DNA of 24,417 nucleotides, from NCBI GenBank assembly GCA_013115145.1, contig JAAPAO010000334.1:13982-38398 (forward strand), read 5' to 3'. Each line of letters begins with the position of its first letter. The stretch's first letter is position 1. This DNA is from Perkinsus chesapeaki. Taxonomy: Eukaryota; Perkinsozoa; Perkinsida; Perkinsidae. The notes beneath the pieces are model-generated. The model ran no database searches and was not told the origin of the DNA. It was given only the letters and a program-made list of their open reading frames with translations. A program made the position numbers and the translations under genes. Of the stretch, positions 103-21,643 are shown piece by piece.

Positions 103-2396
103 GTTTACGGTCGTCGACCCCATTGCGCGTGCGTGGCCCTTTGGAGGAGAGAAAGATCGTTAAAGCTGCGTGTGGTGGATCACATATGGCAGCAATAACT
201 GATGAGGGCGAGCTTTATACTTGGGGGTAATACGGTGGAAATCATTTAGTATATCATCGATTGATTTATAGTCACCGATTTAGAAGTTGTTAATTGTTAT
301 TTGCCAAATATGATTGGATTTAGAATGTTCTCCTGTTACAGGAGTCCTGTACATGCTTTGGTGTTGTTTGACCTTTTATTATATAAACTGACTTTTCGAA
401 TGGTTTCAACAAATCACCACAGACTTATTGGCGTCGTCAGCTCAGGGACTCAGACCACTGATCTGAATTGCACCAATGCCCAATAGTTAGCAATGAACCA
501 TTCGATTAAAATTTTTTTACATCGAAACTTCGTCCGGTTTGCTTTCCCTGATTTATTGGAAAATGATTCTCAGAATTTAACGTGGTATTTCACGCTCTCC
601 GTTTCGGAGACAAGTCTTTGTATTTCCTGTCGTTGTACTGGATAATATAACCAAGCATATAATATAAAGATGTCGGTCAGTGATTTCGGTATTGCTGCTG
701 GCAGGTTGACAGGGAGGATTTTCCTATCGAAAGTGTTAGGTATGAATTTGAGTAGTGCTGTCTCCTTTTGTGTCGCACTGTGTACTTCGGTGATTATATA
801 CCATCGCTTCCTCCATTATGGAGACTTCTTCCCCACGGCAGGTATGGTCGTGATGGCAACCTGGGCCACGGTGACAAAGCTGACGTTGGTGTACCTAAAT
901 TGGTTGAGACCCTAGCAGGCAAGAAGATAGTTGACGTTGCTGCCGGCGGTGGGCATACCATGGCCCTGGATGATAAGGGAGTCCTGTAATGATAAGGAGG
1001 ATGCTGTGTTGTGGAGGAGAATTTCTATTAGTGTCTCTTTGGAAAATCGTTTTCTGCGTGGAAAACGTTACGTAGTAATTGCCACTGATATTATTTTTAT
1101 CCCTAATTATTTCACTACTGAATCTTGTAGCTTGAATTCGACTGTTGTTTGAAGGTTACGTTGTATTTTACATATTATGTGCTGTGAGCTGCGGGGCTCC
1201 CTCACCACTATACGCTACGTAGGGCCGAAGAGCGTGTTTTTGGCCGTTTGGTATTTCCCGTATTTTCCTGAGCGGCTGTAGATGCAGCCAGCGACGTGAA
1301 AAGTTTCCCACACTTGACCTGATATGTCTAAGTACACTACGTCTGACTTGGTCTTCTCCAACACTAAATAATAGTTACCACAAATTTCCAATATATATTA
1401 CGTTATTGGTATTTATTTTAATGTTTTCATCCGGATTGGTATGGCCAGCTGAACCGTATCGCTGTGGTTGAGAAAAACAGTCCTACAACGCTCAAGACAA
1501 TCTTTGATCCCTGTACGTTATAATAAGGAATGGTTTTTAGAATCAATTCATTTTAATCAACGTTGTGCAATTGGTTTTCAGTTATTCAGCAGTAGTAGTT
1601 TAACAATAAGATGTATGTGCTCACTTTTTAACTAGTAACTATTAAACATAGTGATATAGTTGGCTGAATGATATTAGTAAAAACACCTTCACAGGGATAA
1701 TCCCTGAGGGATTAGGTGGATGCTCGGCTGAGATAATTTCTGATACGCTGTCCCCTTATTGGCACTGAAATGAAGCACCTTTGTGTCATTTCAGTTATGT
1801 ATTTGGCAGAGGAAGGGACGGACAATTAGGCCGAGGAGATAATATAGAGTCGGTTGCAGCCTACCGAACGTTACCAGTTGTTGTTGATTACTTCGGCGCT
1901 AATAAACTGAGAGTCACGGTAATATAAAGGGAACTACGTAGGGCGAGATGGTATGATAGAAAAAAATATCATGTATATGTCTTGTATGTCCTTTGTATAA
2001 GTCTTTATCTTTTTTATGAAAAGTCATAAAGCGTATCTTTGAAGACACTGTGATTTTCTAGAGGATTAGTGTGAGGTACGGAGGAGAATAGTCACCATCT
2101 TCAACAGTCTTTGGTGTCATTTCATTTAACTCATCTCATCCATATGTGACTACACGTTGACCGAAAACCGCAATCAATCCAATAGGACCTCGCTTTTGCC
2201 AGCACACAGAGGTAGTTTGCCAACTGAGTTAGAAATGTACCGACTCTGTTTCGAGATTTACCTTTTTCAATTTGTGGTATTTGTAACTGTAGGGTTGTTT
2301 TTGGTGTTCATTAAATCCATTGATTTATTACATATTTTCCCATTTCAGGCCATTGCGTGCGGTAATGACTATTCAGTTGCTCTAGCAACAGCCTAG
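103..2396 (+). CDS. RCC1-repeat (regulator of chromosome condensation-like) protein, 3' part, four exons
   Basis: Exons are 103-226, 842-985, 1795-1918 and 2349-2396 (TAG). Each junction is GT-AG, and codon phases match across all three introns. The joined product has canonical RCC1 blades: ACGGSHMAAITDEGELYTWG, then YGRDGNLGHGD, AAGGGHTMALDDKG, FGRGRDGQLGRGD and IACGNDYSVAL. RCC1 repeats form a seven-bladed propeller, used for Ran nucleotide exchange in RCC1 itself and for many other roles in relatives; which applies here cannot be told. Only about 2.5 blades are inside the window; the 5' part lies to the left, since exon 103-226 starts mid-codon after an acceptor. The introns are long (615, 809 and 430 nt), and two carry the 22-nt double palindromes described below. 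Confidence 0.88.
330..351. repeat. 22-nt 7-8-7 double palindrome, W = CTCCTGTA
   Basis: W(1-7) at 330-336, reverse complement of W at 337-344, W(2-8) at 345-351, all exact. Located in RCC1 intron 1. Read as a transposon excision footprint. Confidence 0.8.
1692..1713. repeat. 22-nt 7-8-7 double palindrome, W = CAGGGATT
   Basis: W(1-7), reverse complement of W, W(2-8), all exact. Located in RCC1 intron 2, about 80 nt before its acceptor. Confidence 0.8.
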
Positions 2397-2832
2397 GTTT
2401 AAGAGTGTTATGACCAGTAGGTCATGTTACACAGTTTCAGTGATAGTGGCTATAAAGCACCAGTAGTAGTTACTTCAATAATAATAGTTTCATTAACAAA
2501 TAAACTGGTCTTCTGTTTTCAATGTGTACTTGTCAGAGTCGCGACATAGTCGATCGAACTGTACAGCATGATTTGGTTGATTTAATAGGAATAATAAATA
2601 TATAATTATATTTTATCTACGTACTGTGATGAAGATATTATTGAATTGTAATAAGATAGAAATGATATATTCTATAATTAATATTACTGCTCTCTTCTTG
2701 ATAAGAATCTTACGTGACAAAGGATCAGCTCCTCCAAAGCAAAGATATGCATATAACTGTTTGAATACTTAACGTCTGGCGGTGTGATATGATCTACTAT
2801 AACCCTAAGAGGGCTCGTTTTGTTGTTTTGTT
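2397..2832. other. intergenic, no gene seen
   Basis: AT-rich spacer between the RCC1 gene stop and the next gene. Contains short AT runs (about 2580-2660) and a small imperfect hairpin near 2411-2426. No coding signal was recognised. Confidence 0.6.
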
Positions 2833-3517
2833 ATGCCGGCAGATTCCCCTCAGAAAAGCAAGTCGTCAGAGGGCATGGGTGATGTTCCCTATAGGGTGCC
2901 CATGTCGAGGGATTTGGAGGGTTCGGTGTACTCCGATCCACCGGTCATCTGGACAAGAATTATGCCAATCAAAGATGATACTTTTACGTGGGGTAAGAAA
3001 AGAATATTGAGGGTGCGCTCTTCTTCTTAAGCATTGAGTGAAAATGGTGATGGTCGTAGTTATTTGATCGACTTACAAATAATTTGTCGGATGGTTTGTA
3101 GCTGGTAACGATTCTGTAAGGCTCGCTAAGCGACCAGACATATATCGTCCAGCTATGCAACTCACAAGTGTCACTTGCTGAATCGAATCACCGTCAGACC
3201 TGGTAGAAAGGTGATAGCAGAGTATAGAGAAGTGCAAACTGCCTACCCGTTACTACGGGTATCTTGCTTCATCGCACTGTGTAGATTTCCGACTATCAAT
3301 ATCTTTGTCAGCAAGATATTTATATTTTTCTATTCAGAGCAAATATATAAAGGTGAAGCCTCGCCGCCGGTATCTGAGCAGCTTCCACAAGATCTGGATG
3401 GTCATCCCTTCCAAGGCTCAACCTACATTCCCCTCGAGCCGGGTTGTATGGTGTATCTTCATCCACGAGGGGACAGAGGACTCCGATTTGGTGGTCGATA
3501 CAGACCGTGGGCACTGA
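2833..3517 (+). CDS. hypothetical protein, three (or four) exons, about 150 aa
   Basis: Exon 1 is 2833-2992 (ATG; donor GTAAGA). The last exon is 3338-3517, after a 79-nt intron with acceptor CTATTCAG, ending ...DLVVDTDRGH. A middle exon encodes LNRITVRPGRKVIAEYREV and ends at 3258. Its 5' boundary is ambiguous: either one intron 2993-3130 (155 aa), or a 14-nt micro-exon at 3102-3115 followed by a 53-nt intron ending at 3168 (147 aa). Both keep the frame. The start is the first ATG of an open frame and could be preceded by another exon. The C-terminal half is basic (KYIKVKPRRRYLSSFHKIW). No family was recognised and no signal peptide or membrane segment is evident. Confidence 0.55.
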
Positions 3518-3725
3518 TGGTGAAGCCAAGTACGGCACCGAGTCCAATGGGAAACAGTTATGAGCATTCTTATCACGATGGTTTCAATTGATTTATCAAA
3601 TTCATTGAGTTGTAATGTCCAAAGATTTCCAAAGTAACTGTGACGGTTGTTGCGGCTGCAAAAACATTTTAAAGTGGGGGCATCCAGAGTGTTTGGAAAA
3701 GCAACTGTTTCTGGTTGTATTTGAG

Positions 3726-4473
3726 ATGTTATTCAATAAAGCTATGGGTTTGATAGCAGCAGCGGCCACTGTGGCATCCTTCGCTTACTGGTTCAATTTC
3801 CTCCTCAACGATCCTTTCCATCTTGGTTGGAAGACCATGGATTCACGTCACGTCACATTTGGTCATTGCCAACAGTTCGGCTTATCGGTCGCGTTGAGCG
3901 ACGTTCTGGCGTTGCTGCCCTTCTTTGCTAGTCACAGTTTGCTGGCACGGAGGAGTGTTAAGAAGGCTATTGGGGTGTTTGATGAACCTTATGAACAATC
4001 GGTTTACTTTGGCGTCAGCTCACTAACATTGGCGATGTCGGTTTACTTGTGGTGTCCTGTAAGCGACTGTTCTTCCTTTAACATGACTGATGTGAGCCTA
4101 TTAAAAGGCGTTCTGTGGTTTGGGTTATCTATAATAGGCATGGTCCTCACTACCGCATCCAGCGCGACAGTCATTTCCTTACTGGGAAAGAAACGACAGA
4201 AGAAGCTTGTGAAGACGTTCCCGTACAGTATCGTGAGGCATCCAGGTCAACTTGGATTTCTGCTACTATTCTGGTCAATCCCAGCATACACTCCGAACCA
4301 CTTGTTCCTGGGGCTGTTATGAACTGTATTCCCTATCGGCGGTCGTGTTGCTCGAGGAGGCTGATCTTCGAGATCCTATTGTTGGTTTCGGCAAGGAGTA
4401 CGATAAATACGCTGAAGAAGTGAATGCATTCATTCCAAGTCGCCGTGCATTAGGGTGTGTTTTCTGCCGTTAG
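3726..4473 (+). pseudogene. NnrU/MddA-like membrane methyltransferase, copy 1, frameshifted
   Basis: Paralogue of the intact gene at 4993-5787. Matching segments include YWFNFLLNDPFHLGW, FASHSLLARRSVKK and FPYSIVRHPGQLGFLLLFW; after a frame change comes LYSLSAVVLLEEADLRDP, ending in a YDKYAEEVNAFIP-type tail at 4473. The ATG at 3726 aligns with the start of copy 2; the frame is open upstream to 3615, but that N-terminal addition is absent from copy 2. At 4318-4322 the frame runs into TGA and the conserved tail continues in the +1 frame; no GT-AG intron can explain this. About 10 residues are also missing before FPYSIVRHP, including the loop with the FG motif. A sequencing error is the alternative to a true pseudogene, but the extra deletion favours decay. 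Confidence 0.75.
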
Positions 4474-4992: not shown

Positions 4993-5787
4993 ATGGCTTT
5001 CAACTTTACAGCGTATCTCCTGTCTCGTGTTGCCTTCGCTGGTACCATATTGGTATTCCCCTACTGGCTTAACTTCATGCTTAACGATCCCCTTCAATTG
5101 GGCTGGAACACTATAGACTCTGGCGATGTGTTGCCTGAAGGAACATGTGTTATTTTCGATCCTCATTCTCTGTACAACAATCTGCTAGCCTTCTTCATAT
5201 TCGCTGTGCCTCATAGTGTTCTTGCAAGGCAAAGTGTGAAGAAGATTTTGCGCATCGCCGACAAGCCGTATGAAAGGCCGCTCTTTGCCTTCATCAGCCC
5301 TGTAACATTCTTCCTAACATTTTACTATTGGCAACCGATAAGCAACTGTAGCAGATTTGATATCAGCACCTTATCATGTGGTGCCATCATGGTATCAACT
5401 ACGATAAGTTTGATAGCAGTTATATACATCCTGGGCGTAATGTTTACACTACCTGACCACATATTTGGGACTGAGCGCTACAAGCTTAAAAGTGGGGAAA
5501 CGCAGAAGGGAAAGTTGATAACTACCTTTCCGTACAACCTGGTGCGCCATCCAGCCGGCGCTGGATTCCTTTGGCTGTTCTGGAGTTTTCCTTCTTATAA
5601 TGTGAATCACATTATAATTAGTAGTATGTGGACACTCTATGTTGTTCCTGCTACGCTGTTACTTGAAGAAAACAGTCTGCGAGGCCCCAATGGTGAATTT
5701 GGGCCCGCTTATGATCGATACGCTGAAGATGTGGCTGCTTTTTTACCTGGTAAATGTGTTTTTAGAGCTTTTTTTGGAAAGAAGTGA
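4993..5787 (+). CDS. NnrU/MddA-like membrane methyltransferase, copy 2 (intact, 264 aa)
   Basis: Single-exon polytopic membrane protein of 264 aa. Hallmarks of the NnrU / methanethiol S-methyltransferase branch of the isoprenylcysteine methyltransferase-like family are present in order: TM1 (about residues 8-30) ending in YWLNFMLNDP; PHSVLARQSVKK (about 74-85) with the family His-Ser pair; the KPYERPLF segment; TM3-TM4; FPYNLVRHPAGAGFLWLFW (about 178-196) with the Arg-His-Pro motif; and LLEENSL...YDRYAEDVAAFLP at the end. Characterised relatives use S-adenosylmethionine to methylate methanethiol, giving dimethyl sulfide. That substrate is plausible for a marine protist but is inference; other family members act on other thiols or have unknown roles. 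It sits 519 nt downstream of a broken paralogue on the same strand. The start aligns with the expected first membrane helix. Confidence 0.82.
   Translation: MAFNFTAYLLSRVAFAGTILVFPYWLNFMLNDPLQLGWNTIDSGDVLPEGTCVIFDPHSLYNNLLAFFIFAVPHSVLARQSVKKILRIADKPYERPLFAFISPVTFFLTFYYWQPISNCSRFDISTLSCGAIMVSTTISLIAVIYILGVMFTLPDHIFGTERYKLKSGETQKGKLITTFPYNLVRHPAGAGFLWLFWSFPSYNVNHIIISSMWTLYVVPATLLLEENSLRGPNGEFGPAYDRYAEDVAAFLPGKCVFRAFFGKK
5595..5617. repeat. 23-nt perfect palindrome with one central unpaired base, inside coding sequence
   Basis: Eleven paired bases flank a single A at 5606. It lies within the intact methyltransferase gene (codons for SYNVNHII). The aligned region of copy 1 has the same length, so this is not a simple insertion. 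Confidence 0.85.
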
Positions 5788-6386: not shown

Positions 6387-7139
6387 TCACTTCCCTCGGT
6401 ATAATAAATAGAGAATAAGTGAACAATCTACATAGTGATAATTCATCTGCATCTGCCTCTGACTAGCGGTAATGAACAGAAGGATTATGAACCCTTCAAC
6501 AGTTCCTGGAACTGAGTTACACTTGACAGATGAGGAGTCAACGTATTTGACGCCATGACATTCTTTCTTAACGTATGCCCATATTATAAAGACATATATC
6601 ACCATGCATCGTACTATGGCAATTTACATTACCCCAGCAATGTTTGACATAACTCTGAAACAACATGAACGCTTGGTGGTCAAGAGCCTCACCATATCGC
6701 ATTTGAGAACACAACGTCCACGGTCACACTTCGTATATTTTCCAGGCCACTCAGTGTTGGTAGGGCAGTCTTTGTTTTCATTACATTGAGGGAGGCACAT
6801 GCCACCGTCAATTCTTCCCTCATACTGAACAGCATGCCATCAAGCAACATAGTGATTCATTACAAGAGACATGAATGGTTTTTCATCATTCCTCATGCAA
6901 TGACAGTCAGAAAACTGTTGCCCATCCTAAGTACAACTTCCAGCGGGCTCGTCATATGGACCTGAACCAGGCGCTCAGTCAATTTAGGCAAATTGATGTA
7001 TAAACAGCCCTCGAGTTCGAATAGCGATAAGATAACCCTTGGTAATGGTTAGTACGCATCGTTACCAGTGTCAAGCCTCCTGCTGTTGTTGCTGGTACTT
7101 CCAGCTCTGATGAAACTGAGCAGACAGGTTCACACTTTA
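6387..7139 (-). CDS. Cys-rich protein with hydrophobic C-terminus, multi-exon, N-terminus unresolved
   Basis: Secure minus-strand exons are 6962-7009, 6864-6914, 6693-6824 and 6573-6654, joined by introns of 47, 39 and 38 nt. All three junctions are GT-AG and phase 0, and the frames agree. The product contains SDCHCMRN, then a dense Cys cluster (GGMCLPQCNENKDCP, YTKCDRGRCVLKCDM), then KHCWGNVNC...DICLYNMGI. Spacing resembles small EGF-like or Cys-knot ectodomain modules common in protist surface proteins. An exon after a 61-nt intron (high end 6511) carries a hydrophobic run (GFIILLFITAS), perhaps a membrane anchor. Upstream, about 7066-7139 encodes VCSVSSELEVPATTAGG and ends at a GTAACG donor; no signal peptide could be found, so the true start is probably further right. 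No specific function can be given. Confidence 0.6.
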
Positions 7140-8106
7140 CATAACTACTGATGGAGGTGCTTACTTCTGGGCAAATACCGAACCATCCTTGGAGAAAGCC
7201 GACAAGGTGAAGAGAATGACTTCGATAGATCTCATTGATGGCAAGTTCGAGAGCTACCTTGGCAGAGTTACTGACCACCCTCCAATTTCTTACACTAGCG
7301 GTGAGACTCATAACATATTATGGGGGGCACCGAGCTACCCTCGACTGAGCGAAACATGGAGAGTTGCGACACGCCGTTGGATCACTACGACCTTGGGGGT
7401 TGTCGTCGAAGCTTTCTGCTTCTACCTCCATTAGCGATCCGTCGGTCCTCGCAACTCGCCCATTGTTTCTAGCGGTTCTGGCGGATACGTTGAGGAGATT
7501 TTACAGTACGATACACGCAGTGTGTCGAAGTAAATTCGGGGAGTATCCGGGCGGGCCCTAGTGGCCCGGTAGCTGTACGCCATATCGATGTGACGCGACG
7601 GGAGGCTGTACGCAACCTACTCTAGGAGGCTTGCCAGCCAGGCTGCTCTGCTGGGTCGCTCCAGGGTCGCCTCGCGACAGTTTTTCTTGGCATCAAAAGG
7701 CTGAAACACGTATTCCAATTTGGAATTCGCAGTTCAACGTTCCGTACCCAGTCGGTAATAAATACGTACACTCAGCGCGTCGCGACTCTTGCTTCAACAT
7801 GCCATCCTTACGGATTCGTCGTTGGATGACCTAAGGAGCGATGTGCACACAGGGGCGAGTAGAGACTAGCTCTAAAGCTGATGTTGATGGGGAATGTACT
7901 CAATGGCAGGAGTTGTTGGGCGATACCAAAATCGCTCATTTATTGGAATTAACGGCCGCTAAGATGCACTAAGAACTATAGGCCTTGCTGAATTTGGCTT
8001 CATGATGGAGTGGCTCGTCCTCATCACTGTCGCAGGCAGTCTTATCTCATATGCTAAGCATGTTATGCTTCAACTTTTGTTCCGTTGTTAGTTGTTCCCT
8101 CGTTCA

Positions 8107-8600: not shown

Positions 8601-9628
8601 ATGCTGATGTCGAACAACCTTATTGGTACCGCCCTTCTCGTTGCCACTCTGTCCGTGGTCGCTACAATGAGTGAGTCTATGCCTAAATGGTGGCAAGACA
8701 TTTATAGCTCTCTGGATTACTTTCCTGTGGTGACCGAAGCTGACGGTTGTGAACTCAGTAAGAAGCTTAGTTCATGTCTCTATACCACTGAGACTCTCTT
8801 TGGTTCGGTCAACATGACGTTGACGAATCTGAGGATACACTCCTCAGACGGCAGCCGACCGGTTGTATCGGCCGGTTCTGTTTATAGGAAGGATGGGACG
8901 CATGATGTGTCAGCAATTACAGGAAGGCTCTTCCTTACTGAAACATTCACTTCAAGTGGTGGAGAAAGATTCAATGTTACCTGGGAAGTGGATGCTACAG
9001 AACATCTGCTCTCTCCTGTTAAGGTCGGTGAGTTTTTAACATACTCGACCATTACAATCGATTCCTCTTTTGGCAAACATGTTGTCCAGTCTAAGCAGAG
9101 CACCATAATGGCTGGTCCAGCGTCTGCACTTTCAGTGCACGAGGCTCCACACTTTAGGAGCGCAAAGGATCCCGATGAGCAGATCGAGTACGTGCTAGAG
9201 TTATCCTTATATGTTTCTCACGGTTATTTCTATTTTGGTGTAGCCGGGATAAACTTTGAAGCCTCGTGGAATAGCCCAAATGGACTTCGACGTGAAATGG
9301 CTTCCGGGAGTAAGGATATCGCTCGCCTGTGGTATATTCGATCATGAGGCAGCCATACCTAGATCCAGAATATCCTATCATGCCATCAATCTCTGCATCA
9401 AGCAAAAGTTTACAGTTTCTTATGCAGGGCTCCTCCACGGAAGGTTCAAATTTTGTAGTTTTTGCTGCCCAGGCAAATCGGCGGCTGTCATACCAGCGCC
9501 AGGTCCAAATATCTCTATATTATCTTTCAGTATTGCGTTCAGTTTCATCTCTCACTGCAAGTCTCGCCGCTGTCGAACAGCGGCTGTCTAAAGTTAGGCC
9601 AGATCGAAAAGTTTCGAGTCACTGTTAA
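8601..9628 (+). CDS. secreted protein of unknown family, two exons
   Basis: Exon 1 (8601-9309) starts with a clear signal peptide (LIGTALLVATLSVVATMSES) and runs as a 236-codon extracellular domain with a possible disulphide (CELSKKLSSC) and N-glycosylation sequons (NMT, NVT). A strong donor GTAAGG at 9310 and an acceptor at 9367-9368 give a 59-nt intron; exon 2 (9369-9628) then continues in phase to TAA, with SSTEGSNFVVFAAQANRR and a helical tail (SVSSLTASLAAVEQRLSKV). Without splicing the frame would stop at 9347 (249 codons in total). The intron model is inferred from site quality and phase. No homologue is recognised; the overall look is of a lineage-specific secreted or surface protein. 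A 22-nt footprint begins 2 nt before the end of the stop codon. Confidence 0.65.
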
Positions 9629-9646
9629 TGACTCATTAATAATGAG
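9625..9646. repeat. 22-nt 7-8-7 double palindrome, W = TTAATGAG
   Basis: Exact. It overlaps the stop codon of the secreted-protein gene. Collapsing it to W leaves the TAA in place, so it has not created that stop. Confidence 0.8.
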
Positions 9647-9795: not shown

Positions 9796-9817
9796 GCCGC
9801 GGGCCGCGGCCCGCGGC
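9796..9817. repeat. 22-nt GC-only palindrome (no spacer)
   Basis: A perfect even palindrome made only of G and C, starting GCCGCGGGCC. It has no central unpaired base, unlike the other palindromes here, and stands out from the surrounding mid-GC sequence. Confidence 0.85.
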
Positions 9818-10959: not shown

Positions 10960-13569
10960 TCAAAGTATAGCATCGTCAATAAAAGTAACAATATTCTCAT
11001 CAACATCCTCGAGCTCAATCGAAACAACTGAGCTGCCGTTTGCAGTGCCGCAGCTGCCTTGCTTCAGCGAAGAGTCCGTCAAGCACCAAGCCGTCGCCTG
11101 TCCATATTTGCTCTCTTCCAGTGCCTGATGGTGAGAATTACTCTATTCGTGTTTTGTAACTTACAAAAAGTGTGGTATGTCCTTTACAATCCTGGATTCT
11201 CTGCAGAATCAAATTTCCAGAGTCATCCAAACATAAGGGGACAGCTGCCGACACAATCTCAGGATCCACCGAATTCCGCAAAACTCGGAGAGAATTTTCC
11301 TCGGGACAATTCTCATCTCGGGGAGGCGCGCGAAAGCTGAAAAGTAAATCACTTATGGTAGTGTCAGGCAGCAATGAGGGAAAACACTCCACAATAAAAT
11401 CTAACTTAGTTCGCCTCAAACAACGCCTGAACAGTCACAGCATTTCCGCTACTAGAGGACCCTAACGGCTCTCAGGCTGGACCCTGTTACGCCGCGACAT
11501 GTTAGTATTTACAAACATTTTTTTACGCTGACGCCTAAAATGTATAAACTCTATTATCTTGATGTCTACTCAAGTACTGTGCACGAAACTACTACTGCCA
11601 GTTACTCTTAACGCACTTTTATCGACACTGTTCACTCTGTGTTACCCTTGACACACTGTTATCGACACTGTTCACTCTGTGTTACCCTTGACACACTGTT
11701 ACCGACACTGTTTACTCTGTGTTACCCTTGACACACTGTTATCGACACTGTTCGCTCTGTGTTACCCTTAACACACTATTACTGCTCCCTGTGTGCGACT
11801 CTACTTTGTTTACTGCCAGCGTTTAAAACAGTAAGCAGTGATTTTTTTAACGAAAGACAAAGTGCCTAAATCCTTTCAAGGAGTTCCCTTACCGATCGCC
11901 AACAGATTTGATACATAGCTCCTGTAGTGGAGGTATATATGTCTCTGTCACTGAATTGAATGTGAACTCGTGAACATATCCTTCTTGATCGCAACTTCCA
12001 GATCTACCGACTGCTGCTGCCATCCATCTGAGAGCGTTCAATAGGATGTAATTATCTCTAACTTACTTAAATCTTCTCAAACCGCGAGACAAACTTTGGA
12101 TAATTCTCGAACGAATTAACGTATGGCTACGCACCTCGAATGTCCACCGCTGCTGAGGAACCCCACACAGATCGGTTCTCCTCTTGATGATTTCCTCACA
12201 TACATTATTTTTTCGTCATTCCACGTCTTCCGGCTGCGCTCGTCATAACCACTGGGACATTGCACCCGAGTGGCCTACAGTTAAAGTCGAAGTTCGTCAT
12301 CTTTAGTGAGAACTCTACCTCCTTTATTTCTATAAAGCGATAAACCCATCCTTGTGGTGACACGGATATGCAGATAGCTGTGAGATCTTCACTTGGGACA
12401 TATTTAACATCATCAAGATGCAATACTTTGAATCCGAGTAGGTGGGTCCAACCCTGACGATCAGTGCTGTATAACTAGTACACGATGTGCCGTAGGTGGC
12501 CCTAGCCAGATGAGCGCCGTATTATATCGACCTGCTTATATGTTTGGAGTATTACGACATGCGATTCGTATGTCATATTGTATCTTCTCTTGGCTCAAGA
12601 ATTCCGTTGCCCGCCTCAGTGGGGAGAAAATTTTTCGTCTGGTTCTGTACATAATGGGAAGGCGCGAACGTCTATTATTGATTTTCGAGCTACTGTGGAT
12701 ATACTGTATCTTTCCGTACATTTCATACGAAAAATGTGCCCCCGGTATGTCAGAGCCACCCGTCACCGACTCGAAGGGCCCCACCTGATCACCGCACCAA
12801 TCTGTTCCAACATTGATCCTATGCTTCATCCCAGATCCTGAAGCATCATTGGCTTGGCCGATGCAAGCCGGGAAGTCTCTGATGTATCGCCTGTTCTTGC
12901 CTGTGGGTTGATGCATGTTAACTTCTCTAAGCATCACACTTGCCTTTCTCCAATGCTTGGGCGAGGACGTCCCTCGACAGGGCATGAATGCTTCCTTTGT
13001 GTAGTGATGGGAGAGTTCTGATGAACCTTTGTAGTCTCCACTGATGGTCGATAACAGTGCCGAGCTGTCTGTTGAAGTCTATCGCTAGAAACCTTGATGG
13101 AATCGTCCTCGATGTTGCTCCTCATCGATAAGTGCTAACCTTATGTCTTCTCGCCGTTTGCACTGTTCTGGTAGAAGCTCCCGAAGTTCGTCCAAGTCAC
13201 TTGGGACTTTCTTAATACCGATGCGCAGATCAGTTTGGGAGCCACATAGCTCTGTGTGAGTGCCAATTTAACTGTCATAAACGCTACTGGCCGACCTCGT
13301 CGCACGATGAGATATATTCGCTCTTCTGTCGTCTCAACTGCGGTCTTCTTCGATGCCACAGATTTCCAGTGCAGTGTGAATCCTCTAGCCGTGCTATTCA
13401 CAGAAGTATCTTGCAGTTGACGTCCTATCGGGACTAATCAACCTGGTTGGTGCTGCATTCGCAGCGAGCTTGCTATGTCTGCCGAGATATTATAGATTTT
13501 CTCTACAGATTGTCTGCTAGTCACCTTCACACCGAAATATGCAGTAGTATAGTCTATACTACTTGTCAT
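10960..13569 (-). CDS. large multi-exon gene, unknown function
   Basis: Minus-strand exons: 13443-13569 (ATG, MTSSIDYTTAYFGVKV), 13296-13382, 13093-13251, 12705-13035, 12556-12644, then an unresolved junction region, 12319 to about 12425 or 12453, 12135-12274, 11893-12027, 11165-11426 and 10960-11124 (TGA). Introns are mostly 40-61 nt; those at 11125-11164 (40), 12275-12318 (44) and 13252-13295 (44) are clear examples, and phases agree at every listed junction except around 12430-12560. Recognisable coding segments include KKVPSDLDELRELLPEQCKR, MLREVNMHQPTGKNRRYIRD, MYVRKSSRGEPICVGFLSSG, TETYIPPLQELCIKSVGD and TKLDFIVECFPSLLPDTT, with an acidic end (IELEDVDENIVTFIDDAIL). There is no signal peptide or membrane helix, and the family was not recognised. 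It could be two genes if the unresolved junction is really a gene boundary. The 466-nt intron holds a 40-nt tandem array. Confidence 0.6.
11601..11783. repeat. 40-nt tandem repeat, four full copies plus a partial
   Basis: Unit starts GTTACCCTTGACACACTGTT; copies are at 11601-11640, 11641-11680, 11681-11720 and 11721-11760, and a partial at 11761-11783. The first and last copies are most diverged. It lies within the 466-nt intron (11427-11892) of the minus-strand gene. Confidence 0.95.
13543..13563. repeat. 21-nt perfect palindrome with one central base, in first coding exon
   Basis: Ten paired bases around T at 13553, starting a few bases after the ATG of the large minus-strand gene (codons for SSIDYTT). 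Confidence 0.85.
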
Positions 13570-13855: not shown

Positions 13856-16573
13856 CTATCCTTTTCTATAGAGCTTGGAAGGATACATAATTGAGAAAGT
13901 ACTTAGGATTGGGGTTAAATTGACTAGGGCATCATCACTGCTAGTGACAGAGTTGATCTTGATTCCCTACCTGCAAAGATGATAGAATCGTTTGACTTAA
14001 CAAATTCATTCCTCAGAACATACTCAACATTATTGATACCATCGCTCCGCCATATCATATCGCCTGACCTAACCTGCTGATCGAATTCGAACACTACAAA
14101 CTGAGCTCATCATATACCCGTTGTAGCCTCTCCCACATAGGCTTGTCATCAGCTGGCCTTCTACGGGGTGTATGGTCACTATCATGCAGACACAAGAACT
14201 TGCCATGGCCCTTTGGCGGCCGGAGTATCTTTAAAGGACTTTGCAATCACAACTAATTTATCCGACTCTATACCCTTGGAGAGGTATTCTGAGATCTCTA
14301 TGAAGAGCACTCGACATAGACTGACAATTTAATAGTTCTCCCTCTATAAGGAGATTGACGTTACAACGATTCAGCTGGATGAGCCAAGGATTAGTTACGG
14401 GCAATGCGCGGTTCGATTACTTCCACGCTGCCGGGTTGAGTGAGGCAAAAAGGTTCACAGCCGCCCGCAAGTAATTGATTATGGCGGAGCCTCCAGTATC
14501 TGATTTGCTCGATACGCAGGTTCGACCCTCGCTTCTGTCATTTTACAAATCGTCGTCCTCTCCTCCCCAACCCCAATATTCATTGGAGAAACCATTTATC
14601 TTTTCCCAGTGTTCGGGTGTCATTGCAACTGTGCCACCCACGTTTCCAGGATATGGTACACTCCAACCCCAGCACTCAATTTCACTGCTAAGCTGGGTCG
14701 GTGTTGTACAGGAACCGAAATCAACTCCTGAGAAATGAAGATTCCTCGACGGTAGGCTTCCATGCGACGAGGCTAGAACTTGGAAGTAGTCTTTTTGCCA
14801 TTGCGGTTGGGTGGGACTTGACAATACTTGGTTATGAACCACACTAAGCTACAAACTTTTCAAGGAGAATGCTCTATGAATATCAAGAGTTATTGGTTCA
14901 TACTGTATCAGTTGGAGTGACGTGTTGTTAGTGCTCGCGTTGGATGGATCGATTCAACTCACCGGACATAGGTAAATTGTCGACATCTTGCATGACTATG
15001 CAGTCGGGTGGGCCATCGCCCATACTACGCATGACTTCTCGGAATCTGAGCTACAGTCCTCAAAAAATATCAAACATATTTATGCAAGCTGGAATGGTCT
15101 AGTTGGTTATGACGATCGCCTCACACGCGATAGGTCCCGAGTTCGATTCTCGGTTCCAGTATTTGTATCCATCGTAGCCTTGCCTCACCCGACATTAAAC
15201 AGCCATCCTCGGTTAAATAACTGATTATCAAACTGTTCAATGAGGAATACGTGGAACTCTTGATTCCGCTTGTTCTCAACATTCAATTCTCTGACGAAGT
15301 CGGCTAGGTGCCGCTCGAACTTCTGGTAATGACTTTCCCGGTCTCGATATCTACAGCAAACAGGCGAGTCGGTGAATAGGTGAAGCTTTATTGAGAATTA
15401 GAATAAAGCGACGCACGCTGTACTCATGATTTTTAACTCCGTATTATGGACCGATTAAAGCGATTGCTAGAAGCCTAAGAACTGCCGATGCCTTGCACGT
15501 CACTAAAAAATTGTAACAGCACGCATGCGTTGCCGCGTCAGCTGGTAATACCAGTCAGGGACTTTGTTTAGATCGAAAAGTGCAAGAAGCAACTCACGGG
15601 ATAACAATGGCAATCCGTTTGTCTCGAGTGGCGGGCACTGTGACTTCGGTGGAATGAATTTGCCGATAGTCGATGCAGCCAGCACATTCACAGTGCAATC
15701 TCGAGATACCGCACCACCTTCACAGAGAGAAGCGGTATCCTAATTTGGATTGATAATAGCTGTCCAACCCGCTAGCGCTGCAGCAGGGAAACTGGCCATC
15801 AGGATTGCACTCAGCCTTCTGCTGGGACCCGTCATCTGATGGCCAGCCGACGCCACATCTGCCAGCAAGAGTTAGCACAGTGCATTTCTTTATGGTTTTA
15901 CTGGAAATCATCTCTCCAAGGTTTAGAGGATGCTTTCACCGATGTTGGTTCGACATGCGCCTTTGTAAGCTCGTTAGACTTCGTAACAGCGGTAAGCTTG
16001 GTCGTAGGTTTGTCTGCTCAATCGCTATCCATTTACGGGTTTTACCGTCTTACCTATGACATAATGTTTTCGGTTATCAACCAAGTTCTGTATTCGTTTC
16101 AGCTCCTTCATCAGTCCATCAAGCCTTTGCTCGAGTTTTTCAACTTCTTCACTCTGGAAACGAAATCTATCATCTGAATTGCCATTTCGCTCCACCTTAT
16201 AAGATGCCATCCGTATCCCTTCATCCTTCACAAGCAGTTCCATAACCATATTCCGTATCATTGCTTTGTCACTGTCGGATGCTATCAGTAGGCCTGATCA
16301 CCGCAAGCATCCCGAAACGACGTGTTTTTCAAGTACCAGAGTTGTGGCGTGCTCCGTTTGATATCTGGCCGAATATTTCGCTCAGGATGTATATGGATTT
16401 CTCGTGGCGTTCAAGTTGCCTCAATTTCGGTATGTAGAGAGCCTACTAGCAGGTTCGTATTTCTGTTTCCTTTAGTGTCCGACCTCGAATAGGTAAAGTC
16501 CAGCAATGCACGAAAATGCGAGCAAACCAATAAGAAAGACCAGCAGATATGATGGTGGCCGCGAAACTGCCAT
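13856..16573 (-). CDS. beta-1,4-galactosyltransferase-like (GT7) with hevein-like Cys module, 13 exons, 514 aa
   Basis: Exons: 16484-16573, 16337-16442, 16054-16293, 15902-16013, 15769-15858, 15598-15717, 15189-15350, 14963-15045, 14547-14727, 14421-14499, 14118-14228, 13971-14073, 13856-13923 (TAG). All introns are GT-AG, every phase matches, and the total is 1545 nt. Domains: type II signal anchor (SYLLVFLIGLLAFSCIAGLY, residues 8-27); coiled-coil stem (about 120-145, SEEVEKLEQRLDGLMKELKR); Thr/Lys linker; 8-Cys module (about 184-230) with CGVGW...CNPDGQFPCCSASGWCG and HCECAGC, the hevein chitin-binding spacing; GT7 catalytic domain (about 245-514) with RIAIVIPYRDR, FNRGWLFNVGF, QDVDNLPM (metal-binding DVD, 327-329), GFSNEYWGWGGEDDD (386-394), RPPKGHGKF and HDSDH. 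Family members transfer galactose (or GalNAc) from UDP-sugar to terminal GlcNAc in the Golgi. All key motifs are intact. Acceptor specificity is unknown. Confidence 0.9.
15088..15161 (+). tRNA. tRNA-Val (anticodon CAC)
   Basis: Cloverleaf drawn by hand: acceptor GCTGGAA / TTCCAGT (one G-U pair), discriminator A, D-arm with AGTTGGTTA loop, anticodon stem ATCGC/GCGAT with loop CTCACAC, variable loop AGGTC, and T-arm CCGAG-TTCGATT-CTCGG fully paired. Anticodon CAC reads GUG valine codons. A- and B-box promoter sequences are internal (the B box is GTTCGATTC). It lies within the 143-nt intron 15046-15188 of the galactosyltransferase gene, on the opposite strand. Confidence 0.93.
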
Positions 16574-16654
16574 TGTGGGAAGTTTCAAAAATAAAGTTGG
16601 GGCTTTATCTGATTGCAATCATGGAGTTAAGATTCTCGATGACGATCTACTGAA

Positions 16655-16676
16655 GTCGGATAATCCGACTCGGATT
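16655..16676. repeat. 22-nt 7-8-7 double palindrome, W = GTCGGATT
   Basis: Exact. About 80 nt upstream of the galactosyltransferase start codon. Confidence 0.8.
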
Positions 16677-17021
16677 CAGAGAGCAGACTGTGCTCAGAAA
16701 GGATACCTCACAAATCACGATGATTTGAACAACTTGATTCAATACGCTACTTCAAGCTGATGATGCAGGTAATGGTCCATTTCTGCAGCACTAGCTTGAA
16801 GTGATTCAATTTCCATTGCTGGTGCGTGAATCATTCAAAAATATGAGTTTGAGTGGATGTTAGCCAGCTCATTCAGGGAGGGTGTGAAGGTAGGCGGACC
16901 GAGTGCCCCTATTGGACAGCGGCGATAGAGTGAGCGCGTCCTATACACGAATAAACTTTGTTGTGCTCCTAGTACGCCGACGGCTAACTGAACTACTATC
17001 ATCGATTATCAAATCATTCAA

Positions 17022-17043
17022 GTGTCATGATGACACTGTCATC
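17022..17043. repeat. 22-nt 7-8-7 double palindrome, W = GTGTCATC
   Basis: Exact; intergenic. Confidence 0.8.
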
Positions 17044-17186
17044 CTTCCACAGGGCCCAGTGCTTTATCATGGCGTGGGGGTTACTGGATGGTGCATTCGA
17101 TGCGCGATTCTGTGTGCGCTCCAGCGTAGTGCACGGAGACCTGTGAACGATTATGCGGTTTTCCAGTGTTTCAATTTGATGGTAGA

Positions 17187-17208
17187 CTCTGTTTAACAGA
17201 GTCTGTTA
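17187..17208. repeat. 22-nt 7-8-7 double palindrome, W = CTCTGTTA
   Basis: Exact. The left palindrome extends to 21 nt (17184-17204), which suggests slightly longer hairpin copying on that side. Confidence 0.8.
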
Positions 17209-17242
17209 TTACCGTTATTGTATTGTGCGCTGTGACCGCCGT

Positions 17243-17264
17243 GGCGTCAGTGACGCCGCGTCAC
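17243..17264. repeat. 22-nt 7-8-7 double palindrome, W = GGCGTCAC
   Basis: Exact; 34 nt from the previous element. Confidence 0.8.
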
Positions 17265-17703
17265 ATATTTGTGCATGCGTTCCGAGGCCCTTGCGCGGGC
17301 ACTTTCCTAGTGAACTTTAGGTTGGATTAAGGACAGGAGTGAGTTGAGCTTCTGATCCTCACTAACCTGATATGCAGAGTACGTTTTTATACATATCTCT
17401 TTGGAAACGGATGCTCCATTATTGAAACTTCAACATGTTACGTAAAACACTTACATAAATATTATAGGTTTTTGTCAGGACCGTTTCGTCGCACCTGATA
17501 GAATTGATGGCGAGCGAAATTCTCACGTGCGCGCAAGCTGTGAATTTTCGATATGCAACTCAATGACTTCTGAGTAAAAAAGCTAACCGGGAACCAAAAA
17601 ACATGTTATCAGGACCCAACATGTCCTCCATGCCTCTGTAGGATCCTCTGTACGCGGCCATTAATCGATTCTGTCAGTTTCTGGATAGTTGAGGAAGCAA
17701 CCG

Positions 17704-17882
17704 ACTTTGGGCGAGCGAGATTTACTATAAAGACATTGGGCGAGCGAAGTTTGTTACCTTTCTTATTAGATTTGGAAAAGCACAACCCGCTACGGGAACT
17801 GCCTTCTGTGTAACCGCCTCTTTATCGCACTACGTAGAAATTATCACACAATAGCCACTTTGGGCGAGCGAGATTTACTATA
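17704..17882. repeat. dispersed direct repeat with GGGCGAGCGAG core
   Basis: A 26-nt sequence is present identically at 17704-17729 and 17857-17882, with a shorter diverged copy at 17735-17752 (TTGGGCGAGCGAAGTTT). No open frame is associated. It could be a relic of a transposon subterminal repeat or a protein-binding site cluster. Confidence 0.8.
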
Positions 17883-17916
17883 GTATCCCAGTCGCCCACT
17901 ACCAGTGGTATAGTCC

Positions 17917-17938
17917 CACTATCCGATAGTGACTATCG
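17917..17938. repeat. 22-nt 7-8-7 double palindrome, W = CACTATCG
   Basis: Exact; intergenic, about 35 nt after the second copy of the GGGCGAGCGAG repeat. Confidence 0.8.
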
Positions 17939-18093
17939 CCCGGCAGACGAAGTACGCACCTACGGTAATATCACTGTTATAGTGAGTCGATTTTACTCAA
18001 TGTATAAAATACGTACTTTAGAGATCGATAACAATCTAGGAACCTAATGAAGTAAGCAAGCCCTGCTTAGCAAGGGTATTTGGAGAATCTCCA

Positions 18094-18160
18094 TTGTCGA
18101 TTTCGCTAACGATTTTAGTTGTAATCTGATTACAACTAAAATCGTTAGCGAAATCGACAA
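18094..18160. repeat. 67-nt perfect palindrome with a single central base
   Basis: Arms 18094-18126 and 18128-18160 are exact reverse complements (33 nt each) around T at 18127. The left arm begins TTGTCGATTTCGC. A smaller 13-nt one-base-spaced palindrome (TGGAGA-A-TCTCCA, 18081-18093) abuts it. It lies 33 nt beyond the stop of the C48 protease gene. Confidence 0.95.
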
Positions 18161-18192
18161 GGAACAAGAAACTGTCTGAAGCGGCAGGCGAT

Positions 18193-19085
18193 CTATTCGA
18201 TCTCTAGACTGGTAGGGAAATGCTCAGGTGCTACAGCAGCATGCTGTAGCAGAAGCAGGTGCTCGATCGGCAGCCGTGGAAACCGATCGATCTGCTTGCT
18301 TTGAAGGCAATCGAATACATGGTCCCTCATTCTGGATTCATCAAAATTGGTTGCTGCCACTTCTGCCGGACTCTTGTCAGACAGTGGCAGCTTCGTGAAA
18401 TGCGCCAGGACATGCAAGCCACAAAGGTTGCCGGCGCTACTTTGCCGTTGAACTCCCAGGCAGATGAACAAGTTGTTACTGCCGAATGGATCGACACAAC
18501 TACGCTGAACCCGGTCATGGAGGAGCATGCTCATACTATCCACATGAAGCAGCTGGCCACCCATACGAGCAATACCCACGGAATGACCACCGCCATTGTT
18601 GATCGGCTGGAGAACTGTCAATGTGCCGATGACGGTGGACTGAAACGCATCGGTGTACCGTCTTTCAGCTGCCACGTTGGAATACTTGCATCCTCTGACC
18701 TTCGCATGGTGCTGCCGACCGTTTCGTACAATAGGAGCATCCATGAATCAATCATCCCAACATTGATGGGCTCACCCCGAGTAGTCAGGCTCCTCCTGTC
18801 GAAATTAGTGACTTCAGCACCACCAATAGGCAGCCAAATGCTGTCGTCACCGTTATTCACATCTACAGACCTGTCGGTAGCAACAGATTGACTAGGTCCT
18901 GCTACCGATGATCCTGGCACTGCTCCAAGAACTTCCTGGCTGAACAAACTGCTAGCCGACAGATTCTCGAGAAACTCCGCCTGCGACAACGGTGGGCTAG
19001 TATTGTTCACACGTTCATCCGGACGCCTTGAGTCAGGGCTTCCGGAGGTTGAGGAAGACTCGGAGTTTGGAATGGTACCTACCAA
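18193..19085 (-). CDS. C48 (Ulp1/SUMO-protease-like) cysteine peptidase, probably transposon-encoded
   Basis: Two overlapping minus-strand frames make up the protein. The N-terminal one (19085-18618) has a Ser/Pro-rich region, then DDSIWLPIGGAEV and EPINVGMIDSWMLLLYE, the usual Ulp1 substrate-groove start. The C-terminal one (18744-18193) holds the catalytic set: GGGHSVGIARM (His), LLHVDSMSM (Asp), VQRQ (oxyanion Gln) and AGNLCGLHVLAHF (nucleophile Cys). They can be joined by an 80-nt GT-AG intron (donor after LLLYET, acceptor before STVIGTL), or the change of frame may be decay. The true start is not visible. C48 domains of this type are often carried by Mutator-like and other DNA transposons, and a MULE transposase lies immediately upstream on the same strand, so a shared element is likely but not proven. 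Confidence 0.65.
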
Positions 19086-19242
19086 TACGAAGTTCCCAAT
19101 AACGAATACGTGCAGATGATCTCACCGGTGGTAGGCTCCTGCGTACGTCGCCTACGAGAATGCTCGGGATAAACCCCATTCTCCGTCAGCTGGCGCGTTT
19201 ATTTTGCGTGCTTCACGAAACCAAGTTGGCCTTCAACTTCAC

Positions 19243-19263
19243 GTCCTTCATAGTATGAAGGAC
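19243..19263. repeat. 21-nt perfect palindrome with one central base
   Basis: Ten paired bases around G at 19253, in the tail of the MULE remnant. There is no third arm, so it fits a single-hairpin product rather than the 22-nt type. Confidence 0.8.
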
Positions 19264-19288
19264 GGACCATAATAAGCGTATGGAGTTC

Positions 19289-19310
19289 ATACGGTGACCG
19301 TATTACGGTC
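19289..19310. repeat. 22-nt 7-8-7 double palindrome, W = ATACGGTC
   Basis: Exact; inside the MULE transposase tail. Confidence 0.8.
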
Positions 19311-19369
19311 GTATGGTCGCCGTTTCCGCCGATCATCACGGTTAGCAAGGACCAGGTCACTTCGAACTT

Positions 19370-19391
19370 CCCTCATTATGAGGGCCTCATA
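19370..19391. repeat. 22-nt 7-8-7 double palindrome, W = CCCTCATA
   Basis: Exact; places in-frame TAA and TGA codons directly after the conserved WTWIDVVLKHM block of the transposase. Confidence 0.85.
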
Positions 19392-19998
19392 TGCTTCAGG
19401 ACCACGTCGATCCACGTCCAAATAATAGGGCGGACGTCAGCAGAGAAAAGGGTATTCCATTTATGATGGAAACCCTCCTGGGAGTTGTTAGTCCGCGGGA
19501 AACCGTTGAGCGCACGCTCACGCATGGTCTACCCACCTACTATCACTTACCATATTCTATATCCTACATATACAATCATATTTTACCCTGTAAACCTGGT
19601 GAGTTACCAACACAAACATGAAGGTGAGACGCTGAAACAGTACAGTTAGTACAGCTAGTAAACTCTGAATTGAAAACCACCATCATATTTTAAGCAGGTC
19701 TTAAACAACAACCGGTGAGCAATCATTATTGTCGTCACAATATATGACGTCCTAAGAAAACCTTTGGCTAAGAATGAAACTGTTTGTTACTTCGGGATGT
19801 CGGACTGAGATTTCCGCCAAGCCGTTGAACCTCTGTCTGATATGCAGTCTCACAAAACAAGGGTGTGAGATTCTTCTGCATTCCACCATATGTGCGCCTC
19901 CGGGAAAACTTCCTGGACCGCTGGGACTCAAAATCCATTACGACACTGGCTACGGTCGTGAAGTCTGGCAACACAGAGCGAATATGCGTTAGCAACCT

Positions 19999-20020
19999 GA
20001 TGTAGGCTACATCATGTAGC
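19999..20020. repeat. 22-nt 7-8-7 double palindrome, W = GATGTAGC
   Basis: Exact; sits at the frame break between the DGTYKVCP segment and the HIRSVLPDF segment of the transposase. Replacing it by W gives one open frame across the junction. Confidence 0.9.
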
Positions 20021-21475
20021 CCTCCTTCGTGTGATCCGACAGCAAGGCATCAAAAGCTGGGTAGAAGGTCCCACCAGGATGCATGCATAATATAGTGTAT
20101 TGTTGCACCCAATACCTGGGGCATACTTTGTAAGTACCGTCCATGGGAAGTTGGGCTCTACCCGGCCTGATATAAATATGCTCCATAGCCCAACGATTGT
20201 AGTAGCAGATGATACGATGTCCATCATCCGAGCCACTATCCCACAGAAAAGCCATGTACTTGTCGCCTGTATCCGAGTCACCAAAAGCAACGTATTGAGA
20301 ATCTTCAGGAATATCGAAGCCGGTTCGCTGCTCCTGAGAGGACTGGCAGCTAAATTTTCTGTAAAGGTATAGGCCCTAATGGGGAATCCCAATTTTTCTG
20401 TGTCTTACTCAAACATGTGATTTGCCGGTGCTTTCCGTGACGTCGCTCCTGTTCATTTGAGGTCCTACGAAGGACCAGCTCTATTCGGGAATATCGTGTA
20501 TATTAGGGGAAAATCAGGGAGGCCCTGGTATACACTTCAGACACGTCGCAGGCAAGGATTTATCGAGCTTCATGGAACAGTGTTCCTCTATTGCTGAATT
20601 TCGAAATATAATATAAATTTTTGATTAAATATGTGTTCAAGGAGCAAGAACAAACATGAAATACAATTCCCCCGGGAATATTTGGCGTTCCCCCATGAAT
20701 TACGGGCCATAATTGATCCCCGAGTTGGCCCGAAACCCTACGAAACACTTAGAAAGTCCCCTCACTGTCTTTACTATCTGACATACTTTACTATCGCTTC
20801 TTGGCTAGCGGGTCCACTCCGGGTCAATAGGTATGATAATATAAGAACATGAAATTAATTATATAAATCTAACTATTGCTGTTTATGTGTAATACTGGCA
20901 ATGTAGTTATGTATGATGATAGGATATCATACATTATTAGTTATATTATGGTTTAGATTGATACTAAGATATATAGATAATTTAGAATATATTCTATCTT
21001 ACATTATTAAGTATTAAAGCGTTGAAATATATTCATTTGTTATGATGGTACAGTAGCTAGTTTTCATATTATTTATACTAAAGTCTATCTCAGCTTGGGT
21101 CGATACATATTAGTTCACTATATAGGATTGTTTTATTTACTATAAAATATTAGTTGATTTGAGTAAATATAATAAATCACATTACAAATTATCAATATTA
21201 GGTCTAGAATATTTATATAGGACACTATAGCGCACTATATCACTATAGTATATATATAGGCTACATCATATTATATGCTTAAAGTACTATACTAAATATA
21301 CAGTATATAACTTTATATGATGTACCAAGTATCTTTCAGATGTCTAAGGGATGTATTCGTAATATTAATGAACAATAATATTAATGTATAACATAGATTA
21401 AATATGTTGGAACTAGATGTAAAATCGATACAAATATATTAAGTATATAGTTATTATGAAGTATAGATAAACTGG

Positions 21476-21497
21476 AATGGAGCCTCCATTATGGAGG
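21476..21497. repeat. 22-nt 7-8-7 double palindrome, W = AATGGAGG
   Basis: Exact; in AT-rich intergenic DNA, where its GC-richer bases stand out. Confidence 0.8.
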
Positions 21498-21621
21498 TAC
21501 TTATAATTTGTATTCATAACTATAGGAAATAGCAAAATTTTCTCAGCCATCGCTCCATCATCCACGGAACCTATGGCACTGATCTCACATATTAAATTTA
21601 GTTTGGTAATAACAATCTGGT

Positions 21622-21643
21622 ATTACCACTGGTAATTTACCAG
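21622..21643. repeat. 22-nt 7-8-7 double palindrome, W = ATTACCAG
   Basis: Exact. Further partial copies of the same bases flank it (GGTATTACC-type text from about 21617 and GGTAAT at 21647), so this site may have been hit more than once. Confidence 0.8.

Follow-up and report, generated by a model that had tools for sequence, protein, structure and literature searches.

The stretch of Perkinsus chesapeaki DNA analysed here (the window, 24,417 nucleotides) contains 22-nt double palindromes of one shared architecture. The 8-base word W from which they are made differs from site to site, and the question is what process makes them. Each reads W(1-7), the reverse complement of W (rc(W)), then W(2-8), or 7-8-7 in short. 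The original prediction listed thirteen such sites and estimated that about 0.0001 would arise by chance. Our exact scan of the window recovered all thirteen without a mismatch, at 330-351 (W=CTCCTGTA), 1692-1713 (CAGGGATT), 9625-9646 (TTAATGAG), 16655-16676 (GTCGGATT), 17022-17043 (GTGTCATC), 17187-17208 (CTCTGTTA), 17243-17264 (GGCGTCAC), 17917-17938 (CACTATCG), 19289-19310 (ATACGGTC), 19370-19391 (CCCTCATA), 19999-20020 (GATGTAGC), 21476-21497 (AATGGAGG), and 21622-21643 (ATTACCAG), and added a fourteenth at 9796-9817, whose W (GCCGCGGC) is itself palindromic. The chance expectation, recomputed for the window under equal base frequencies, was 9 × 10^-5 sites against the 14 observed. Positions 6500-6521, 8049-8070, and 18054-18075 are candidate decayed 7-8-7 sites with one substitution each.

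The same architecture recurred in our genome sample, which consisted of further loci of the same 35.4-Mb assembly, many of them picked as homologues of the window or of hAT domains. Sixteen stretches of 10 kb (158,536 bases in total) were picked by place alone and held 22 exact sites, spread over 10 of the 16, which extrapolates to ∼4,900 sites genome-wide and puts the window, with 14 in 24.4 kb, above the average density. Window and sampled loci together contained 61 distinct exact sites for k = 8 at offset 1, one of them of low complexity (L016:2803, W=CTTTTTTT), and any other arm length or offset tried gave at most 6, so other arm lengths are far from equally common. At offsets 0, 1, 2, and 3, this combined set gave 0, 61, 0, and 2 sites for k = 8; there were 1 and 6 sites for k = 5 at offsets 0 and 1, 1 and 2 for k = 6 at offsets 1 and 2, and 3 for k = 7 and 4 for k = 10 at offset 3, and all remaining entries for k = 5-12 were 0. 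Within the window, k = 6 to 15 at offsets 0-3 with arms of at least 4 yielded no further exact site beyond a sub-match at k = 10, offset 3, that falls within the site at 19999, and k = 5 at offset 1 gave one site. Open frames of at least 150 codons contained 2 of 57 sites.

Repeat copies reveal what such a site looked like before. Eight of the 61 sites were comparable against repeat copies, and at six of these a total of 17 copies from the same genome carried a single W in place of the 22-mer, a replacement confirmed base by base in 14 copies. The remaining three come from L015, in which two repeat copies bear scars at different 8-mers, two of them overlapping, and each scarred copy displays the other's W unscarred. 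In the window, 17112-17369 (+ strand) is a copy of a dispersed repeat with four further copies of 231-239 bp and one more partial copy, and this repeat provides an unscarred reference: the W of the site at 17187 and that of the site at 17243 each stand alone in five repeat copies elsewhere. At 17187 the left flank is one base longer in the W-only copies, giving a net difference of 13 rather than 14. The comparable site L015:9740 was too divergent to read, and at L009:4380 one copy is 14 bp shorter, yet two bases differ from W. The comparison covered 4 of the 10 listed matches spanning L009:4245 and 2 of 2 at L009:4380; in paralogue searches with window 1-2600, window 20201-24417, L026, and L015 as queries, no listed match crossed an exact site. 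Related sequence, here within one genome, thus does display the single 8-mer, and together with the specificity for k = 8 the single-W copies point to an 8-bp target duplication where the 8-mer had once been single.

We interpret every site as an excision footprint: a hAT-type DNA transposon would have inserted at W and later cut itself out. This reading, put forward in the original prediction, is in our judgement highly probable, and it draws on the architecture, the W-only copies, a preference for nTnnnnAn within W, two-sided filler, and palindromes with a 1-nt centre. A hAT transposase closes each flank into a hairpin, with the nick one base into the flank. A hAT-type element would insert at the 8-mer W and duplicate it, and its excision would produce the hairpins W(1-7)-rc(W) on the left flank and rc(W)-W(2-8) on the right. 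If the host then opened both hairpins at a good distance from the tip, each 3' tail would bear a copy of the 8-mer complementary to that of the other, so that the tails could anneal through it, and trimming of the overhangs and filling of the gaps would give W(1-7)-rc(W)-W(2-8), or W plus 14 bp. Opening at the exact edge of W should be unnecessary, as the same 7+8+7 product would follow wherever the opening falls, provided that complementary tails are exposed and anneal. In this scheme we infer the annealing step, the hairpin opener, and the identity of the element.

The base preference within W was strongest at positions 2, 3, 6, and 7. T at position 2 with A at position 7 (nTnnnnAn) occurred in 14 of the 61 W compared with a background of 7.1% (p = 8 × 10^-5), and is therefore a preference and not a rule. 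Hermes likewise favours nTnnnnAn, and its target duplications are 8 bp long (PMC10368747). This preference is not common to all hAT elements, and the TcBuster consensus nnnTAnnn fits 1 of the 61 W.

Excision hairpins might also leave products of other lengths. A search that demanded intact W(1-7) and W(2-8), and which footprints with deletions escape, found 59 scars with a filler of 8 nt in the non-redundant set compared with 0 in three rounds of first-order Markov controls, and 10 with a filler of 3 (control, 3.3); every other filler of at least 2 gave at most 5. Fillers of 0 (187, control 62.7) and 1 (36, control 24) were also above control, an excess that we provisionally take for short tandem repeats. 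Mixed footprints with small deletions or insertions, the usual though not defining finding for hAT elements, were not what we saw among the arm-keeping scars, where filler 8 dominates; as the search needs intact arms, this uniformity may partly reflect detection bias. Rarer, longer scars hold filler copied from the flanks past W. L009:9617 consists of W(1-7)-rc(W), 2 nt of the reverse complement of the left flank, 2 nt of that of the right flank, and rc(W)-W(2-8), and the same two-sided flank explanation accounts for L012:8370 (filler of 17 nt) and L004:1437 (29 nt), with 0 in controls. Among palindromes with arms of at least 9, 29 had a 1-nt centre, whereas centres of 0 or 2-11 nt accounted for 0 to 5 each, and 96 of the 215 with arms of at least 7 and a 1-nt centre overlapped no 7-8-7 site. 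The longer flank filler and the excess of 1-nt centres are predicted by hAT flank hairpins with a one-base offset, and with the dominance of offset 1 they argue for such hairpins, known here by their products and not by their enzyme. In the window, a perfect palindrome with 33-nt arms and a 1-nt centre (18094-18160) may stem from one side alone, from a flank hairpin whose opening was distant from the tip; no neighbouring second copy of its 8-mer turned up.

Fold-back template switching in replication, in which W is copied, the strand flips, and then flips back with no transposon involved, would likewise turn a single-copy 8-mer into inverted copies at the same place and would suit the palindrome at 18094. 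It leaves unexplained, however, the fixed 7-8-7 format with its near-absence of other lengths, the hAT-like base preference centred on W, and the two full rc(W) copies bearing opposite-side flank bases at L009:9617, and we regard it as improbable. Programmed elimination, in which a domesticated hAT transposase would remove germline elements on schedule so that the assembly represents a rearranged, scarred genome, would fit the ∼4,900 extrapolated scars alongside no clear element in 242 kb. A domesticated hAT enzyme is known in Kat1 of Kluyveromyces lactis, whose breaks leave the flanking DNA capped by hairpins, although Kat1 works at the MAT locus in mating-type switching and the scars here stand at many unrelated 8-mers (PMC4763223). 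Elimination on schedule is made less likely by graded decay: for k = 8, with overlaps merged, 60 sites had no substitution, 38 had one, and 34 had two (0, 8, and 43 for k = 7; 0, 2, and 1 for k = 9). It is also made less likely by scar content that varies between repeat copies and by one scar common to two repeat copies, one of which bears a substitution. The latter scar must have been duplicated and inherited, and together with the range from perfect to decayed it indicates that scars are inherited. Programmed elimination thus keeps a small probability, and both it and fold-back switching are less likely than hAT excision footprints.

Flank hairpins are also a product of RAG/Transib, and P elements also make 8-bp duplications, so the footprints could belong to another superfamily (Transib/RAG-like, P-like, or Mutator-like). 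Transib-type chemistry, however, leads to 5-bp duplications without a one-base offset, and offset 0 gave just 1 site for k = 5 and 0 for k = 8; the Hermes-like base preference and the hAT domains in the genome also speak against such an origin, which we consider unlikely. A sequencing or assembly artefact might produce adjacent inverted copies, as some library chimeras typically show, but would hardly give a base preference, graded decay, or one and the same inherited scar in two repeat copies, and we give it next to no weight.

Palindromic filler also arises as P-nucleotides in V(D)J recombination from hairpins opened off centre, and these are usually a few nucleotides long and irregular, unlike the scars here. 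Ac/Ds excision in yeast, Arabidopsis, and Candida albicans shows a flank hairpin, filler palindromes centred on the complement of the element-adjacent base, and microhomology repair, all as here (PMC5873905). The Ac/Ds footprints are mixed, with 28 different ones in 128 Candida revertants, filler of at most 3 nt there, and, in budding yeast, palindrome arms reaching 20 nt, whereas one product dominates here among scars keeping both arms (PMC5873905). TcBuster footprints are also of the hairpin type, but they are short and varied and its consensus is nnnTAnnn, unlike these scars (PMC3499496). Hermes and TcBuster are mobile elements, whereas here we have scars without a mobile copy. The element mPing is not hAT. 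In its precise excision, target-duplication microhomology steers repair in a similar way, whereas in our scars the annealed copy would be inverted and a scar remains (PMC4561436). A literature search covering few of the subscription journals, and some sources in part, returned no description of this 7-8-7 scar and none of hAT footprints from Perkinsus.

If the excision reading is true, scars can be recognized without a relative or an element copy, because 14 of the 22 bases are fixed by the other eight. Past hops of DNA transposons would become countable and datable by decay, and host hairpin repair would be readable from sequence alone. The 14 bp gained per scar are not divisible by three, so that excision would also supply new mutations steadily. 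Uniform scars pose a puzzle about repair. The hAT footprints in the literature are mixed (PMC5873905, PMC3499496), and hairpins in this lineage may therefore be opened at a greater distance from the tip, or repair may lean far more on annealing. We tentatively suggest, while ourselves leaning slightly against it, that the host in the Perkinsus lineage has one dedicated route for hAT hairpin repair via the target duplication, that almost all hops of a nomadic element, itself nearly traceless, leave an identical 14-bp tag, and that the thousands of tags are a datable record of a nearly absent transposon.

The hAT dimerisation domain was recognized above cut-off at 4 places, within open frames of 97-246 codons, and DUF4371 matched at 2 places, one with internal stops; no intact hAT transposase appeared among these matches. 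A solved-structure search with a short hAT piece gave a single match to an unrelated molecule (E 0.77). The original prediction had also called for elements with 8-bp duplications, and this part was borne out by one weak candidate at most. A search for 8-bp duplications with 14-bp inverted ends gave 1 match compared with 0.33 in controls, nothing clearly above chance, in a 242-kb non-redundant sample in which many loci are just 3 kb and would cut long elements. Looser end settings at the four hAT relic loci gave the weak candidate, around a relic at L044:1146-4774, with the TSD TATGCTAC and ends that agree at 9 of their first 10 bases; a search for further copies of it found none. In distance spectra of 7-mer direct repeats, tandem repeats drowned any signal. 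The elements look rare or hidden in the assembly, in which case the scars would record a long hop history of a low-copy or unassembled element. The uniformity of the scars, their numbers, and the scarcity of elements are oddities in their own right. A gap in a duplicated stretch (C3), considered as a possible occupied site, turned out to be unrelated sequence, and the repeat at the end of the window (24345-24417) was considered as a possible element end, for which no opposite end was found. The first 16 bases of this repeat occur in six exact copies, including the window's own, and wherever the distance could be read these lie at most ∼1.1 kb from a contig end.

The original prediction named thirteen 22-nt sites in the window with the structure W(1-7)-rc(W)-W(2-8), where W is an 8-mer specific to each site and rc(W) its reverse complement, and all thirteen of these 7-8-7 scars proved exact (13/13). 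A fourteenth exact site, absent from that list, starts at 9796. All loci sampled from the assembly together contained 61 distinct exact 22-mers of this kind, and other arm lengths or offsets were not comparably frequent (0 to 6 each vs 61). We estimated density only from 16 stretches of 10 kb picked by place, the remaining loci having entered the sample by homology to the window, hAT domains or repeats. The place-picked stretches held 22 exact scars in 158,536 bases vs 0.0006 expected, one of them (L016:2803, locus and position) being of low complexity. Scars were present in 10 of the 16 stretches and unevenly spread (0 to 7 per stretch), and extrapolation from these stretches to 35.4 Mb gives ∼4,900 scars genome-wide. 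The 7-8-7 scars are real and strong, both in the window, which forms the final 24.4 kb of a 38.4-kb contig, and elsewhere in this assembly of 884 contigs.

The sites had been interpreted as footprints of hAT-type transposon excision, in which flank hairpins with a one-base offset anneal through the 8-nt target duplication. We consider this very likely; the footprints would be unusually uniform, and the element nearly out of sight. Related repeat copies within the genome show the state before scarring. One copy of a dispersed repeat occupies window 17112-17369, and five copies elsewhere carry both CTCTGTTA, the 8-mer of the scar at 17187, and GGCGTCAC, that of the scar at 17243, once each. Scarred and unscarred copies differ by 14 bp at 17243, and by a net 13 at 17187, where the left flank is one base longer in the unscarred copies. 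A sixth copy, on contig C101, is without the stretch between the two sites. The counterpart of the scar at L009:4245 has a single CGCAGGAT in four copies. Another repeat has two copies at locus L015; their scars sit at different 8-mers, of which two overlap, and each copy is unscarred at the 8-mer of the other. Comparison was possible for 8 of the 61 sites and clear for 6 of these, with the predicted single 8-mer seen in 17 comparisons over the 6 sites, all within one genome. At L009:4380, one copy has the scar in common, with a single substitution, and another is without the 14 bp, yet two bases off W; at L015:9740, the available copy is too diverged for a reading.

If the flanks were each sealed with an offset of one base, palindromes centred on a lone base would be expected in abundance. 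Counting only arms of at least 9 nt, 29 palindromes had a 1-nt centre, 22 of them outside exact scars, compared with 4 without a centre, 1 with a 2-nt centre, and 0 to 5 per centre length from 3 to 11 nt. Window 18094-18160 is a perfect 67-nt palindrome with 33-nt arms and a single central base. We also searched for scars in which the filler, the bases between W(1-7) and W(2-8), consists of hairpin copies of the flanks. This search returned 59 scars with a filler of 8, two each with 6 and 7, and one each with 5, 9, 17, 20, and 29. Fillers of 3 (10 vs 3.3 in the control) and 4 (5 vs 0.7) exceeded the control, and a filler of 2 was below it (4 vs 9.3); the excess at 0 (187 vs 62.7) and 1 (36 vs 24) is taken for putative short tandem repeats. 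The filler at L009:9617 consists of rc(W), 2 nt of reverse-complemented left flank, 2 nt of reverse-complemented right flank, and rc(W), which can be read as both hairpins opened two bases past W and joined without annealing. Such a filler would hardly arise unless W had once been present in two full copies, which points to a former insertion at the site.

We infer that annealing accounts for the dominance of one form. If the hairpins were opened such that complementary stretches of their tails overlapped, these tails would anneal, be trimmed, and yield an identical 7-8-7 scar whatever the exact nick, and scars with longer filler would be the minority joined without annealing. The dominance of 7-8-7 is an upper estimate, since footprints missing part of W escape the filler search.

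The 8-mer itself shows a base preference, with bias peaking at positions 2, 3, 6, and 7 (19.4 at position 2 vs a maximum outside W of 5.8, four bases before it). Over the 61 symmetrised sites, T occupies position 2 and A occupies position 7 in 51%, a single measurement by symmetry, and 14 of the 61 W combine both, vs a background of 7.1% (p=8e-5). This motif was examined because it is known for hAT elements. For the hAT transposase Hermes, nTnnnnAn is the preferred target and the duplications are 8 bp long (PMC10368747). In other systems, hairpin-capped breaks are described for Kat1 (PMC4763223), mixed, short footprints for TcBuster (PMC3499496), and, for Ac/Ds in Candida, 28 footprints from 128 revertants with a filler of at most 3 nt, the authors citing yeast cases in which palindromes are longer and an involvement of microhomology (PMC5873905). 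The introners of Amoebophrya, repeats from the same wider group, have 3-5-nt direct repeats and are hence unlike the 7-8-7 scars (PMC7789003). Our literature search, which covered titles and the start of abstracts, brought up no description of a uniform scar of the 7-8-7 kind.

The number of sites by fewest substitutions from the perfect 22-mer was 60 with none, 40 with one, and 42 with two, or 60, 38, and 34 after merging overlapping windows. Neighbouring word lengths gave 0, 8, and 43 (k=7) and 0, 2, and 1 (k=9), and the two-substitution class is in part chance. This graded decay, together with the scar common to two repeat copies, means that scars are inherited and that their ages span a range. 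Loci of at least 7 kb contain 57 sites that are exact or one substitution away; 2 of these fall within open frames of at least 150 codons, vs ∼13 expected from frame coverages if sites fell evenly, although scarring may itself disrupt a frame.

Scheduled removal, that is programmed elimination, is compatible with the tests run. This and the difference of 13 at 17187 slightly lower our confidence in hAT footprints and slightly raise that in programmed elimination, which we regard as very improbable. As to the element expected for hAT excision, four places carry a hAT dimerisation domain and two carry DUF4371, one of the two adjoining a dimerisation domain on contig C379; no intact transposase was established among these places. 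A scan of 242 kb for 14-bp inverted ends bordered by 8-bp duplications gave 1 match vs 0.33 in controls. A weak candidate for a hAT-like element, from four loci tried, is a hAT relic on contig C779 (L044:1146-4774), which lies between two copies of TATGCTAC (an 8-bp duplication) and has short inverted ends; these agree at 9 of their first 10 bases, and 20 shuffles of the relic locus gave no such pair. A search for a further copy of this candidate found none. Either the element has few copies that hop frequently, or its copies lie outside the assembly, or the sample is too small. A Tc3-type helix-turn-helix match just below the cut-off at L041:4378-5150 overlaps a hAT dimerisation-domain region, and may represent a pair of transposon relics, either adjacent or nested. 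Window 17439-17557 is 87% identical to DNA next to a hAT domain on contig C721, and just after it, at 17704-17882, a 26-nt word (ACTTTGGGCGAGCGAG...) occurs twice in exact and once in diverged form.

The window also contains a 25-bp unit repeated three times in tandem (1-75), tandem 40-bp repeats (11601-11800), and a tRNA gene (15088-15161). The protein encoded at 4993-5787 shares 64% identity with a protein of Perkinsus olseni and 53% with one of P. marinus, and this single protein points to a Perkinsus-like protist as the source. This frame and the adjacent one at 3615-4322 have weak, below-cut-off similarity to phospholipid methyltransferases and are perhaps a tandem pair. A repeat (ACTAGTGGAACCCGTC...) starts at 24345-24417; its six exact copies each lie ∼1.1 kb or less from a contig end, and it seems to break the assembly.
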